Origin: Candidatus Altimarinota bacterium
GTDB taxonomy: Bacteria; Patescibacteriota; Gracilibacteria; Absconditabacterales; Absconditicoccaceae
Reading direction: 5' to 3'
DNA: 64,000 nucleotides
Assembly (NCBI GenBank): GCA_021734475.1
Contig: JAIPIU010000005.1
Location: 1 to 64,000, forward strand
Part shown: positions 327-52,490 of the stretch, one piece after another
Layout: each line of letters starts with the position of its first letter
How positions within the stretch are numbered: the stretch's first letter is position 1
Notes under the pieces: model-generated
The model's input: only the letters and a program-made list of their open reading frames with translations
Database searches by the model: none
What the model was told of the DNA's origin: nothing
Program-made: the position numbers and the translations under genes

Positions 327-3300
327 ATGAAAAGATTAACTCTATCAATTAAGTTTATGTGAATAAGTAGCAAAATTTTGGTTTTGATACAGATTTTTTT
401 GTTATTGTTTATTGTATGAGTAAATGCCGATTATACTGAGTTTACTAAACAATTAGACATGATGTGAATGGATACAAAAGAGATAGAAAATACTAATAAA
501 ATATCCCGTTATGATTTAGCAAAATTATTGAATACCGTAGAATGTAAGGACTGTATAAATACACCTCTAGATATGATTTATAAATATGATAATAAATTTC
601 GAGATGCTTTTGGAAAAATACCCGGTAAAGATTTTGATGATATAAAATATAAATGATGACTATACAAATGAGAAATATATTATTACTGTGTAGCATATGT
701 TTGAGATAATGACTATATGAGATGATATCCCAAAGAAGTTAGTCCAGTATGCGGTGGAAAATTCTGTGGAGATAAAGATACGACCCAAGCCGAATTTATA
801 CAAGTTATAATAAATCTTAGCGCAAAATATATTTATAAAAACTTTCAAGCAAACCGAAAAGAGATAGAAAGATGGATGAATAAATTAAAAGAATGATCAT
901 ATGCTGATAAATATTTAAATGATACAGATAGATCTAATATATTGGAAGCATCTAGTAAATCTAAATCTGGATATATAGATGATATAAAATATTTCGAGTC
1001 TTATATGAAGTACTGTATGTTTAATTTGGACTCTTGCGGATTTCAAGAATTTGCTAATATAAAACAGGCTGTCCGACCCGTAGCGGAATTAAATGTACTA
1101 TTTAGTCAGAATATAATAGATTTACCTATAGCTAGAAACATTAATATTAATCAACTAGCCGATGGAAAAACAGTATTAGATGTTTTGTATAAATTATATA
1201 GCGTAGTAAAATGTGATTGGAATAATGACTACGACTGTGATGAATCAGATAATTGAAATGATAACTGTCCCAACTATTATAATCCAAGTCAAATAGATAC
1301 AGATTGAGATTGAATATGAGATGTATGTGATAGTGATATAGACTGAGATTGAATACAAAATCCTATATGAATAGTAGACGATAATGGTCGCATAAATATA
1401 GCTTTGTGGGATGATGGTATAAATAATAATATGGATGATAATATCTTTTCATCAAAAGATAATGATAATGATAAAATCTGAATTTATATAAACATAGATA
1501 AACTACAATGAAGTGCTCCACTTACTGTAAATTTTGATGCTATAACTAAATGAGATATAGATGAAATCATCTGGGAAATGTGAGATTGAAGCCAAGTAAA
1601 ATGAACTAAAACAAGTTATACGTTTTTGTATCCATGACTATATAAAATAAGAGCTACTGCTAGTAATAGTGTAGAAAAGGCTGATGCCAAAGTAAGTATT
1701 TTGATATGAGAGAATAAACAAGATCAAAATTGAATAATAATAAGTACAAATCTTTTGGGATGATGAGAAAATTTAGAAATCTGATTTAGCACAAAAAATA
1801 TCGGTGATATAGATAAGATAAAGTGGAATTTTGGCGATTGAAAAGAGGTGATAAAATGAGTAAATGAAAACTTTAAAAGAATATTTATAGATAAATGAAT
1901 CTACAGAGTAGTAGCTAAATGATATAAATGATTAGAATTGAAATCTACAGCATCCATAAATATATGAATATGAGAAGGATCAAAATGATTCTCTATATAT
2001 CCAAATATATTAAATCCCAATGTTGGACAAAATTTTGTACTTGATACAAAAATTCGAGGATTTGATAAAAATAAAATAAAAAACATAGAAACTGATTGGT
2101 GAGATGGTACTAATCAAAATAATAATAGTTTATCAAACCAACACGTTTATCAACGATGATGAAAAAAAGTAATATTACAAAAAATTAATTTAATAGATGG
2201 TATACAATTGTTAAATTTTATAACAATTTATATTGTTGATCTAAATCTAGCTAATACATATACTTTTTTGGTATCACCAGATTCTATAGTAAACAATACA
2301 TATGATAAGTTTTCTTTTTCTAGCTATATTTTGGGGAATATATTACCAAACTACCCTTTTTTGATAAATCAATATAAAACTGACTATACAAAAATGTTCG
2401 CTGATATAAAAAAATGGCCACAAAAATTTGATTATATTTACAATAAAGCGTGATCATATAAATTGGTATCAAACCTATATATAAATCAATGTATAGTTTT
2501 GGAAAATCAAGCAAGTATAGTAGTAAATTGAAAAGATATTTGTTTGGAAGCTATGGAAAGTTGAACTCTATGAAATTTTGTATGTGATATGGATAATGAT
2601 CAAATACCCGATATATGTGATGATGATATAGATGGAGATGGAGTTAAAAACCTTATCTGAATAATCTCTTATGAGAAAGAAGGTTGTGGTATTTGACCTG
2701 ATAATATATGATCCACAAACTGAAATAATAATGGATGATGAGATAATTCAAATAATGTAGATGTAGAACTATTAAAAAAACATATAGGAACGTGTTCTTT
2801 GGATAATGCATTTCCTATAATAAACCCACAACAGACTGATTTAAATTTAAATGGTATATGAGATGAATTTGAAAGTCAAATATGAGTAATACTATGAAAT
2901 TTGGATAATCTATATTCTGACTCTATCAAAGATAGTGATTGAGATTGAATTCCTGATAGTTTAGATGCTTGTTTAGATATAAGTGAGACATATAATTGAT
3001 ATCAAGATGGAGACTGATGCCCAGAAATATGATTAAATCAAAATTGTGATCCTAGATTACAATATCCAAATCTATGATGATTATTTGATAATTTTATACC
3101 ATGATGAGGCGGTATCTGAGGTGGTGGTATCTGATGAGGCGGTATTTGATGAGGCGGTATCTGATGAGGCGGTATCTGATGAGGCGGTATCTGATGAGGC
3201 GGTATCTGATGAGGCGATATCTGATGAGGCGATATCTGATGAGGCGGATGAATAACAGAAATACCACCATTAATTCAATCTGAATGTTTGCAGTGTCCTT

Positions 3301-4587: not shown

Positions 4588-4893
4588 CTATTTATTTTCT
4601 GTTTCTTCTTTTTTTGGCTTTCTAGTTTTAGTTTTATGTGTAAAAAACTTTTCAAAAAGCTTGTCATTTGTTTCCTTAAAAAGAAGTTTTGCTACTCTTT
4701 CTGAAAGTTGAGATCATTGTTCTATATAAGATTTGATTTCATCAATTTGAGCTTCTAATTTATGAGTAAAAGGATCGTATGATCATAATACTTTTTTGTA
4801 TCCATATTTTGCTGGTTTTGTATGTTCTGTCAAAACTAACCTATAAAAAGGTCTTTTTGTTCTTCCATGTCTGGATAATCTGATAATTAACAT
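4588..4893 (-). CDS. rpsP: 30S ribosomal protein S16
   Basis: 101 aa. The N-terminus MLIIRLSRHGRTKRPFYRLV is the S16 signature, followed by the family's LGSYDP segment with Gly encoded by UGA. The C-terminus is a Lys-rich tail. S16 is a structural protein of the small subunit. It sits just downstream of rpmG on the same strand, with 24 bp between them. Confidence 0.95.
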
Positions 4894-4917: not shown

Positions 4918-5091
4918 TTATTTTAACTTTTCTTTGGAATTATGTGTAGTCTGTTTTTTACATTTTTTGCAGTACTTTTTTAATTCTAATTTTGGAGTAA
5001 TAGCTTTGTTTATGGTAGAAAAATAATTTGTAGATCAGCACTCTTTACAAATCATAGCAACTATTATTCTTCATCACTTTTTCTTTGCCAT
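4918..5091 (-). CDS. rpmG: 50S ribosomal protein L33
   Basis: 57 aa with two CxxC pairs (CKEC and CKKC) and the central YFSTINK...LELKKYC stretch of bacterial L33; probably zinc-binding. It has two adjacent UGA glycines near the start (KKKGGR). It is too short for many gene callers and is adjacent to rpsP. Confidence 0.93.
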
Positions 5092-5204
5092 TTTAAATTT
5101 ACTTGTAAATAATTAAAATATTTTATATCGAATGACGTACTTTAGTAATTAATAATCAACGATTGTAGTTTATTATAGTAAATACGATATGAGTTTCAAT
5201 TAAA

Positions 5205-5260
5205 TTTAGCACCGGGCAGAATCGAACCGACCACCTTCCCGATTTATCGGGACGCTCTAA
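5205..5260 (-). repeat. 3' half of a tRNA with palindrome in place of the anticodon arm
   Basis: On the minus strand this fragment matches the intact tRNA at 5525 from the D-stem 3' side to the acceptor 3' end, including the T-arm (GGTTCGATTCTGCC). Its anticodon stem-loop is replaced by TCCCGATAAATCGGGA. It lacks the 5' acceptor strand and most of the D-arm. The stop codon of the GIY-YIG gene lies inside it. Confidence 0.75.
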
Positions 5261-5502
5261 GAATCTGAGATAAATAATTCTATAATCTTTCTACTTTTTT
5301 GATTCTTTAACCAAAGCTCCTTTTTATGTGCAATGCCTATGTTTTCAAACTTTTTATAAAAAATTAATTCCAATGGTCTGTTGTTTTTTGTAGAATATAC
5401 ATTTCATCTCATATGTTCACTTATTCTTCTTTGTAAGTCTTTTGTACTTCAAATATAACACTTTCAATTATTCATTTTAAGAACATAAACAAATCCTGTC
5501 AT
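5257..5502 (-). CDS. small GIY-YIG endonuclease-like protein (81 aa)
   Basis: The N-terminal core reads YVLKMNNGKCYIGSTKDL, then QRRISEH. This is the GIY-YIG catalytic signature (YVL...CYIGST) with the conserved Arg (R25/R26) and a Glu-His pair (E29, H30). The length fits the short single-domain GIY-YIG (UPF0213/YhbQ-like) family. The gene starts 22 bp from the intact CAU tRNA, and its stop codon TAG is part of a second tRNA fragment. Glycines are both UGA and GGN. Family members are DNA nucleases; a role in mobility at this tRNA locus is my inference. Confidence 0.85.
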
Positions 5503-5524
5503 AATTAATAGATTTACTTAAATT

Positions 5525-5598
5525 TAGCACCGGGCAGAATCGAACCGCCGACCTCGCCCTTATGAGAGGCGCGCTCTAACCATCTGAGCTACGGTGCC
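5525..5598 (-). tRNA. tRNA with CAU anticodon (Met elongator or lysidine-type Ile2)
   Basis: A full cloverleaf: acceptor GGCACCG/CGGTGCT with a G-U closing pair, D-arm GCTCAGATGGTTAGAGC, anticodon stem CGCCT/GGGCG with loop CTCATAA, and T-arm GGCGG TTCGATT CTGCC. CCA is not encoded. The CAU anticodon does not by itself separate Met from Ile2. Confidence 0.85.
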
Positions 5599-5848
5599 AT
5601 GTAATTTTACTTTTATTTATTAATCGAACCGACTACCTTCCCGATTTATCGGGACGCTCTAACCATCTGAGCTACGGTGCCATGTAATTTTACTTTTATT
5701 TATTAATCGAACCGACTACCTTCCCGATCTATCGGGACGCTCTAACCATCTGAGCTACGGTGCCATGTAATTTTACTTTTATTTATTAATCGAACCGACT
5801 ACCTTCCCGATCTATCGGGACGCTCTAAGCATCTGAGCTACGGTGCCA
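5599..5848 (-). repeat. three tandem 83-bp tRNA-derived units with palindromic anticodon arm
   Basis: Three copies at exact 83-bp spacing each carry the 5' acceptor strand, D-arm, a palindrome (TCCCGATAAATCGGGA or TCCCGATAGATCGGGA) at the anticodon-arm position, and part of the T-arm. They stop after TCGATT and lack the 3' acceptor strand. Each is separated by the AT-rich spacer TGTAATTTTACTTTTATTT, which also precedes the intact tRNA at 5525. They cannot fold as normal tRNAs and have no anticodon. Confidence 0.85.
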
Positions 5849-5914
5849 TATTTAAAGCATAAAGTTTAAAGCCTAAAGTTTAGGTTTTTTGTTTTAGGTT
5901 TTAGGTTTTAAGTA

Positions 5915-6001
5915 CGGTGAGGGCGGGATTCGAACCCGCGGGCCGATCTCTCGGCCGACTCGTTAGCAGTGAGCTGACTTCGACCACTCATCCACCTCAC
6001 C
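5915..6001 (-). tRNA. tRNA-Ser (GCU)
   Basis: Class II tRNA: acceptor GGTGAGG/CCTCACC, anticodon loop CTGCTAA giving GCU, a long variable arm (GTCGGCCGAGAGATCGGC), and T-arm with GGTTCGAATCC. CCA is not encoded. The downstream side (5850-5914) is filled with short TTAGGTTTT-like repeats. Confidence 0.93.
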
Positions 6002-6128
6002 AAAAAAACATCAATCAAAAAAAAATTGCGTGTTTTGTTATATAAATAATTGATGTTGAATTTCAAGCACAAAACTATAAAAAAATGCTATTCAAATCTG
6101 ATTTATTTTAAATTATAATATTTTTTGG

Positions 6129-47667: not shown

Positions 47668-47712
47668 AATTAAAAAAAATCCAGAATACTAGCTTCTGAA
47701 CTTATAAGTTAG
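47668..47712 (+). repeat. direct repeat copy 2
   Basis: Second copy of the 46476 element; its end abuts the truncated tRNA-Gly sequence. Confidence 0.85.
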
Positions 47713-47750
47713 CGGGTGATCCCGTAGGACTACGGGACAACAGTCTGCTT
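47709..47750 (-). repeat. tRNA-Gly fragment with palindrome in place of the T-arm
   Basis: Matches the tRNA-Gly at 47791 in the acceptor 3' strand (AGCGGGTGA on the plus strand) and anticodon 3' side (AACAGTCTGCTT). The T-arm sequence is replaced by the palindrome TCCCGTAGGACTACGGGA. Same exchange type as at 5599-5848 but in another arm. Confidence 0.75.
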
Positions 47751-47790: not shown

Positions 47791-47867
47791 TGGAGCGGGT
47801 GACGCGACTCGAACGCGCAACAGTCTGCTTGGAAGGCAGATACTCTAGCCAATTGAGTTACACCCGC
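47791..47867 (-). tRNA. tRNA-Gly (UCC)
   Basis: Acceptor GCGGGTG/CACCCGC, anticodon loop CTTCCAA giving UCC, T-arm GCGCG TTCGAGT CGCGT, and an encoded CCA. Reads GGA/GGG. The UGA-decoding tRNA-Gly(UCA) is not in this window. Confidence 0.93.
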
Positions 47868-51252: not shown

Positions 51253-52350
51253 ATGATGTTTGATCCACAGCAACCATACAATGATTTACCTTTACTACCA
51301 CCAAAGGAAACTTTTGATGATGCTGAAATTTCTAAACAATTGGTAAAGACATCTAGAGCATTGGCAAAATTGAACGGTATAGATCTATTGAATAATCACA
51401 AAATAAGTGAGATGATGATCAACCCATTTCTTATATCAGAATCTATCCAAAGCAACAGCATAGAAAATATACACACCACCGTAGAGGAATATTATAAAGA
51501 AGAAATATCAGCTAAACAGCTCACAGGAAACAACAAAGAAGCAGAAAAATACAAGGATGCAATTATGTATGGATTCGATCAAATCAAGGATAATGAAATG
51601 TTACTTACAAATGATATTGTAAAAATGCAATCAATCATTGTCCCCAATAAGCCAGGTATCAAATCTAGTCCAGATAAGAAAATTGAAAATTCGGTTACTC
51701 ATGAGATTATTTATACACCACCTCAATGACAAAAACTATTAGAGGATCTTATGTGAAACCTAGATAAATACATCAATGATGATGAAATACATGATGTTGA
51801 TCCACTTATCAAAGCTATAATTATCCACCACCAGATAGAATCAATACATCCTTTTCTAGATGGAAATGGAAGGACGTGAAGGATGCTTATGGTTTTATAC
51901 CTAGTATTGCAGTGATTGTTGTCTCTACCGATGCTTTTTATTAGTGGTTATATCAACAAATACAAAGATAAATATTATGCATATTTACGCGAAGCTAACT
52001 ATACAGGTAATTTAAAACCACTTATTATATATTTGTTGGAAGGTATAGAAGAACAATCTAAAAATACAATAACCAAGATTATCAAAGTTAACCAACTAAT
52101 CGATCATGTAAAAAATGCCATGTATGATGAATGAATAAAAGAATCTGATAAACTGATAAATGCTTTTATTGAACAACCATATTTTACAATATCTTCGGTA
52201 TTCAATACTACATTGATACCAGCTCGTACATTAAACAGATATTTCAAGAAATTATCTGAAGTTTGAGTTATCCAAAAATCTGCAGGTAGCAAATGATCTT
52301 ATATTTACTACGAGTTAGCTTGATTGATCCCTTTGATTTCAGAAGTTTAA
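51253..52350 (+). CDS. Fic-domain protein with N-terminal inhibitory helix (365 aa)
   Basis: Fic motif HPFLDGNGRTGR (199-210; Gly208/209 region includes UGA), preceded by the flap segment and followed by a C-terminal winged helix (RTLNRYFKKLSEVGVIQKS). The inhibitory motif (S/T)xxxE(G/N) is present as SNSIEN at residues 67-72, so the AMP-transferase is probably auto-inhibited (class II). It is inserted between hsdM and hsdS in the same direction. It may adenylylate a target upon activation. Confidence 0.92.
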
Positions 52351-52351
52351 A

Positions 52352-52490
52352 AGAAAATGGCCGATGATATGTTAGTCATCCGCCAAAAAGACAGAAAATG
52401 GCCGATGATATGTTAGTCATCTGCCAAAGAAGAAAGAAAATGGCCGATGATATGTTAGTCATCTGCCAAAGAAGAAAGAAATGGCTGATG
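52352..52490 (+). repeat. tandem hairpin repeats after fic (about 3.3 units)
   Basis: Units of about 45-47 bp built on AAAATGGCCGATGATATGTT AGTCATCTGCCAAAGAAG. Each unit can fold (TGGC/GCCA and GATGA/TCATC). The last unit is truncated. They are contiguous with no spacers. Confidence 0.88.

Follow-up and report, generated by a model that had tools for sequence, protein, structure and literature searches.

Regarding endonuclease genes that reside beside tRNA genes, a close precedent is SegB of the T-even phages, a free-standing GIY-YIG homing endonuclease encoded in tRNA clusters (PMC13096335; PMC2988022; Brok-Volchanskaya 2008, cited therein). In the accessible parts of these sources, SegB is described as cutting tRNA genes, and its 3' end is homologous to the 5' end of a tRNA, recombination at which gives rise to tandem repeats (PMC13096335). 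Another precedent is provided by the mobile ORFs of fungal mitochondria, in which a homing endonuclease enters an essential gene along with a duplicated segment that restores its function, while the displaced native segment is left behind; cases are known in atp6 of Allomyces and in atp6, atp9, cox2, and nad3 of Glomus, the enzymes being mostly of the LAGLIDADG type and, in the atp9 case, GIY-YIG (PMC3630166). In CPR bacteria, GIY-YIG insertions have been reported in rRNA genes, without group I or II introns and mostly at the tops or bases of stem-loops (Tsurumaki et al., 2024, PMC11270868); they were judged to lie outside homing, and the report does not mention tRNA genes or palindromes.

The window, by which we mean the whole 64-kb stretch of DNA analyzed, contains a locus that may be best read as working like SegB and the fungal mobile ORFs, but with palindromes and in a bacterial chromosome. 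From upstream to downstream, it comprises tRNA-Ser, three 83-bp units, an intact tRNA-Met, a nuclease gene, a 3' tRNA-Met fragment, and the genes for L33 and S16, and the element itself is wholly on the minus strand (Table 1). The first-pass annotation had described an 81-codon GIY-YIG gene between an intact CAU tRNA and a 3' tRNA fragment, and both parts of this description were borne out: the tRNA was recognized by ARAGORN and Rfam, and the ORF (5502..5257; 81 codons, with TAG as the stop) stays open only if TGA is read as glycine (three in-frame TGA), its product matching PF01541 with E=1.2e-13, which places it in the GIY-YIG nuclease superfamily. The ATG is located 21 nt downstream of the intact tRNA. 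The stop codon was correctly ascribed to the D-loop sequence of the second tRNA fragment; TAG (5259..5257) is part of TTAGAGCG and is supplied by the 3' tRNA fragment, which begins inside the last codons of the gene (CTCAGATTCTTAGAGCG, from 5269 downward).

Table 1. Features of the tRNA-Met locus and of a related remnant in the window.
Feature	Position	Strand	Basis or remark
GIY-YIG nuclease gene, 81 aa, table 25 (TGA=Gly)	5257..5502	-	ORF and PF01541 match
Intact tRNA-Met(CAU), proposed rescue copy	5524..5599	-	ARAGORN; Rfam 61.9 bits
3' tRNA-Met fragment, from the D arm onward and with TTTAA adjoining its 3' end, overlapping the gene 3' end	5200..5269	-	
Palindrome TCCCGATAAATCGGGA in anticodon-arm position of the 3' fragment	5237..5252	.	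0 expected by chance
5' tRNA-Met fragment 3 (nt 1 to T loop), palindrome 5639-5654	5622..5681	-	
5' tRNA-Met fragment 2, palindrome 5722-5737	5705..5764	-	
5' tRNA-Met fragment 1, palindrome 5805-5820	5788..5847	-	
21-nt spacer AATAAATAAAAGTAAAATTAC, also at 5684-5704 and 5767-5787	5601..5621	-	
Downstream copy of the ~50-bp direct repeat, palindrome-centered	5220..5269	-	Upstream copies within the 5' fragments
tRNA-Ser(GCU), upstream synteny anchor of the empty site	5914..6002	-	tRNA search
Ribosomal protein L33 gene, downstream synteny anchor	4918..5091	-	By eye from sequence
Ribosomal protein S16 gene, used to find the locus in relatives	4588..4893	-	By eye from sequence
3' fragment of tRNA-Gly(UCC), T arm replaced by TCCCGTAGTCCTACGGGA (47720-47737)	47711..47750	-	Related remnant

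The catalytic residues Y6, Y16, G18, R26, and E62 are all kept in the window protein and invariant in the alignment of its relatives, and the AF2 model (pLDDT 91.8) predicts a confident GIY-YIG fold. The closest solved sequences and folds were the small UPF0213 proteins 1zg2 and 1ywl, and no association of UPF0213-like proteins with tRNA was recorded in the literature searched; Slx1, a branched-DNA nuclease, was also among the closest solved folds. Like SegB, the gene is free-standing and belongs to a family that adjoins tRNA genes of many isotypes. It differs from SegB in that its product is a single 81-aa domain. As far as comparison with phage proteins and PHROG families goes, its resemblance to phage proteins seems slight: a single phage protein was matched weakly (E=3e-4, with 30% identity), and the matches to PHROG homing-endonuclease families were weak and fell in the GIY-YIG domain region. 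A mobile group I intron was considered and judged unlikely, since no group I or II intron was matched by Rfam in the 64-kb window. No integrase gene is present between the tRNA pieces, where the GIY-YIG gene stands alone.

Each of the three tandem 83-bp units consists of the first ~60 nt of tRNA-Met, which break off in the T loop, and the spacer, the last copy of which precedes the intact tRNA. The first-pass annotation had seen a palindrome in the 3' fragment; it lies there in place of the anticodon arm, and the same replacement was found in all three 5' fragments, in the form TCCCGAT-AA/AG-ATCGGGA with one base variable. None of these copies is expected in shuffled sequence. The intact tRNA and the nuclease gene are bracketed because the upstream and downstream fragments share the palindrome-centered direct repeat. 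Elsewhere in this genome, the exact palindrome occurs once: the same 16 nt are found inside the 23S rRNA gene (C1:106795; L001:1501-1516), where they apparently replace a natural hairpin. The tRNA-Gly remnant of the window is situated downstream of an intact tRNA-Gly (47791-47867), and its palindrome also replaces the T arm of a tRNA-His remnant in the same genome (C4:32847).

A search of genome contigs with the window protein as a single query returned one weak locus. Relatives were present in 202 of 287 genomes, with up to 12 per genome; these genomes, of around 1 Mb, were assigned to Patescibacteria on the basis of their genetic code and size; most of the sampled genomes are probably draft assemblies or MAGs, and the layout is present in single-contig ones too, such as G189. 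At the 161 loci with a scorable gene, gene and tRNAs were placed by one script. In the main clade, a tRNA lay within 200 bp on the same strand at 105 of 143 loci and on the opposite strand at none, whereas in the sister clade a same-strand neighbor was found at 0/16 (Fisher p=5.8e-9); two further loci were flanked by repeats. The tRNAs adjoining the relatives belong to 19 isotypes. Of the 58 genes that a tRNA follows closely, 29 end inside that tRNA, often at T8-A9-G10, a likeness to the homology between the 3' end of SegB and the 5' end of a tRNA. Bacteroidota showed a same-strand tRNA at 17 of 31 loci and an opposite-strand one at a single locus. In one genome of this phylum (G487), a tRNA-Arg 5' fragment with two D-arm hairpins plus a GIY-YIG gene is repeated three times before one intact tRNA-Arg (L260), and a second locus (L259) contains about eight 364-bp copies of the gene and a tRNA 3' fragment; the gene-less 83-bp units of the window look like a worn form of such arrays.

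The same arrangement was found at more than 100 loci in two phyla, and homologues without a tRNA neighbor were found as well. About a quarter of the main-clade loci have no tRNA within 200 bp. Of the loci first scored as tRNA-less, six have tmRNA as their neighbor, two are within rRNA genes (one 16S and one 23S), one adjoins a group I intron match, and others are near more distant tRNAs; the remaining main-clade loci are unexplained by these. The homologues without tRNA do not overturn the reading of a mobile unit linked to tRNA genes because they are limited to a separate clade, the rRNA and tmRNA members, and this minority of the main clade. The genes adjoining tmRNA (L023, L024, L042, L068, L084, and L153) have hairpin-rich spacers and probably represent a tmRNA-specialized branch. 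A GIY-YIG gene next to a tRNA-His remnant in the genome of the window (L006) was rejected as a second example; it is regarded as a coincidence because it belongs, on the tree, to a separate clade that is free of tRNAs, and the tRNA is on the opposite strand. Genes of the separate clade at L007:1300-1860 (C3:152858 of the same genome) and L148 (genome G385) are flanked by genome-wide REP-like repeats (GTCATTGCGAGG..GAAGCAATC and CATTCCGG..CCGGAATC), which that nuclease clade may mobilize.

The tRNA-Met locus was compared among 27 genomes of the family to which the window belongs, in all of which tRNA-Met is followed by L33 and S16 and, as a rule, preceded by tRNA-Ser. Eighteen sites are empty, with one tRNA-Met in a short interval; two carry a gene, namely, the window and L208; and seven are gene-less remnants with palindrome- or hairpin-bearing fragments (L185 and L187 of the window's genus, L194, L195, L197, L205, and L211). 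The site is thus polymorphic for presence and absence, as is characteristic of a free-standing homing endonuclease gene. L208 is a separate GIY-YIG element at the same tRNA-Met in the opposite order, with a 5' fragment, the gene, the intact tRNA, and a decayed 3' fragment. The exact palindrome of the window recurs in L187, and the palindrome of L185 is that of the tRNA-Gly and tRNA-His remnants described above. An intact tRNA-Met is kept at all nine occupied or remnant loci, which resembles the substitute for a displaced host-gene segment in the fungal mobile ORFs; this likeness is functional, and homology is not claimed. The fungal units are larger, located in mitochondrial protein genes, and devoid of palindromes in RNA arms. 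This pattern of gain and decay is what would be expected of a homing element obliged to spare the host tRNA.

The tRNA fragments on the two flanks are complementary in polarity. Genes followed by the intact tRNA have the 5' part of that tRNA on their upstream flank (match in the top 5% relative to mismatched loci, 40/67), and genes preceded by it have its 3' part on their downstream flank (11/36). The lower figure is mostly due to a group of 23 loci with the intact tRNA upstream at a longer gap, in which the 3' fragment is mostly not seen and which may therefore insert differently. Most 5' fragments break off either in the D arm or where the anticodon arm begins, and a few do so in the T loop. 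Hairpins are present at the break: the flanks had median fold z-scores of -2.8 with the intact tRNA downstream, -3.9 with it upstream and far, and -0.5 in the sister clade. At several loci, such as L143, L172, L128, L133, and L159, the tRNA and gene lie within 35-50 bp direct repeats centered on palindromes in tRNA arms, and full analogues with palindrome-substituted tRNA on both sides include those for Tyr (L143, same family), Leu (L144), Asp (L172), Gln (L128), Ala (L133), and Pro (L159).

These results suggest that a selfish element is widespread, which enters RNA genes that are essential and offsets the damage with a replacement copy. We consider it probable that the window holds a minimal selfish homing element, which is inserted between tRNA halves when a break is repaired and carries a rescue tRNA of its own. 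The single-domain endonuclease would cut an arm of an element-free tRNA, tmRNA, or rRNA gene, and the break would be repaired by recombination with the element, the ends of which are halves of the same tRNA. The palindromic hairpin and nuclease gene would then be copied in together with tRNA sequence, leaving one complete, working tRNA. The rescue copy would be immune to cutting, and new alleles would be reached by homing; the palindrome, which is characteristic of the nuclease clade and not of the tRNA, would mark the end of the element, probably destroys or replaces the cut site, and may be what the nuclease recognizes, as a sequence or as a cruciform or hairpin. Tandem 5' fragments may arise by repeated insertion or by unequal recombination between tRNA halves, and remnants by loss of the nuclease gene. 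The first-pass proposal of a minimal mobile unit, linked to tRNA genes, has good support in the same-strand rule, second fragments of correct polarity, and syntenic empty and occupied sites. Its wording, that the unit targets this tRNA gene, was too narrow in view of the 19 isotypes, tmRNA, and rRNA, and of palindromes that follow the nuclease across isotypes.

Regarding what the nuclease clades track, isotypes cluster on the nuclease tree (47 changes versus 56.0 +/- 1.9 after shuffling; 0/200 shuffles), as in a Gln clade spanning several host families; since this clustering is significant but weak, target switching is frequent. The palindrome follows the nuclease more tellingly than the isotype does, even across different tRNAs: a palindrome word of at least 9 nt was common to 29% of close nuclease pairs of differing isotype (17 pairs), against a mean of 1.3% and a maximum of 11.8% in 200 permutations. 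Examples are a 20-nt hairpin common to L032 (Ser) and L018 (Lys) and TCCCGATGGACATCGGGA, common to L011 (Ala) and L159 (Pro). The position of the gene 5' or 3' of the intact tRNA did not agree with the nuclease tree, and statements on clades are kept modest because the tree has 88 columns and is poorly resolved. The pattern GAGCNTCCCGAT..ATCGGGA was rejected as a universal signature; it occurs in 8 of 287 genomes, so few because palindromes differ between nuclease clades. TCCCG...CGGGA alone was likewise rejected as a diagnostic motif, its 36 sites in this genome including many short TCCCGC..GCGGGA hairpins, which may be terminators or parts of repeats.

This tracking of palindromes raises an alternative, in which the palindromes themselves are the mobile entities, as in REP sequences, and the GIY-YIG protein is a structure-specific mobilizer that recognizes hairpin or cruciform DNA; RNA genes would be hit for their hairpin arms, and the spare tRNA would be a by-product of the selection of survivors. 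A structure-directed nuclease is a serious rival, given a fold like that of Slx1 and a preference for RNA genes rich in hairpins. It would also accommodate the palindromes in all three arms of the remnant L197, the recurrence of the same palindromes in T and anticodon arms of tRNAs and in a 23S helix within this genome and its genus, and the genome-wide repeats that flank the sister clade (L007 and L148). Nevertheless, the polarity and completeness of the tRNA halves and the clustering of isotypes point to homology-driven homing at specific genes, and the exact palindrome is restricted in this genome to the tRNA-Met locus and one 23S site; we thus regard this alternative as unlikely.

Integrases of many mobile elements target the 3' ends of tRNA genes and duplicate them, and tRNA loci could by the same habit be passive hot spots in which the nuclease is the cargo of larger, decayed integrase-type elements. 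This appears very improbable because, between its syntenic neighbors, the window locus consists of just the gene, the tRNA, and the fragments. Across loci, fragments have their ends in the D, anticodon, or T arms, and 5' halves are among them. The same-strand rule of the main clade, a tree that tracks isotype, and the ending of half of the genes with a downstream tRNA inside that tRNA also argue against it. An equally slim chance may be assigned to an action at the RNA level, in which the decoy fragments or the nuclease function in tRNA processing or regulation, or to a domesticated device that, like SegB, amplifies tRNA genes under tRNA-cleaving attack. The hairpins could be processing sites, and tandem arrays occur here too; however, these arrays repeat broken rather than functional tRNAs, occupancy of a single locus is patchy among close relatives, and GIY-YIG enzymes are known as DNA nucleases. 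The amplification variant draws on phage T6, in which SegB amplifies tRNA genes according to the accessible part of the source (PMC13096335). Neutral duplication by slippage around an unrelated gene, or an assembly artefact, is scarcely credible: tandem duplication does happen here, as the 83-bp array attests, but the layout is found at more than 100 loci with many isotypes in two phyla, including single-contig genomes such as G189.

Returning to the homing element with its own rescue tRNA, the setting differs from that of SegB in that bacterial chromosomes rather than phage genomes are occupied, and the accessible parts of the SegB sources do not describe palindrome-substituted tRNA halves, a nested rescue tRNA, or rRNA and tmRNA sites. 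The biased inheritance of the tRNA region, described for SegB in these same parts, is counted as a likeness. The CPR rRNA insertions (PMC11270868), found in the same bacteria and with the same domain, are probably the rRNA branch of the tRNA-nested element. The first-pass statement that no such system had been described stands for the exact layout, since the literature searched, which did not cover preprints and most subscription papers, contained no description of tRNA-nested bacterial elements; it needs qualification in view of SegB (PMC13096335) and the fungal mobile ORFs (PMC3630166).

Palindromes have been linked to mobility in other ways. REP sequences are short palindromes that spread with cognate enzymes, the RAYTs, which are tyrosine transposases, and the Rickettsia palindromic elements, which are inserted in RNA genes, are longer and have no enzyme to our knowledge. 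The present palindromes resemble the former in presumably spreading with an enzyme and the latter in being inserted in RNA genes, and differ from them in the GIY-YIG nature of the enzyme and in their shorter length. As a more tentative proposal, on which we would place somewhat less than even weight, the elements may constitute an undescribed class of minimal bacterial mobile elements across Patescibacteria and Bacteroidota, in which a GIY-YIG nuclease of ~80 aa and its cognate palindrome invade the hairpin arms of tRNA, tmRNA, and rRNA genes and bring their own rescue copy. Such elements would be a 'home-and-rescue' drive of natural origin and would correspond, with a GIY-YIG enzyme, to the REP/RAYT systems.

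A homing element of this type would assign a role to small GIY-YIG proteins that are very abundant in Patescibacteria but lack annotation, explain why these genomes contain broken copies of tRNAs with palindromes in their arms, and tie the rRNA insertions known from CPR bacteria to the same enzyme. It would also show, in a simple and natural case, how a homing drive can bring along the rescue of the essential gene that it enters. Nearly all kinds of tRNA are represented in this layout across the two bacterial phyla, and the nuclease-palindrome pairs are directly testable in E. coli.

Several observations fall beside this subject. In genome G258 (L107:1482-1556), a tRNA-Val(UAC) that is predicted to be intact has a palindrome, TCCCGATTACATCGGGA, for its whole anticodon arm, with the anticodon still readable. 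At L012:1915-2189, a group I intron match adjoins a GIY-YIG gene and a tRNA 3' end. The window also contains two unrelated tandem repeats, with units of 15 bp at 3102-3247 and of 42 bp at 52350-52490.
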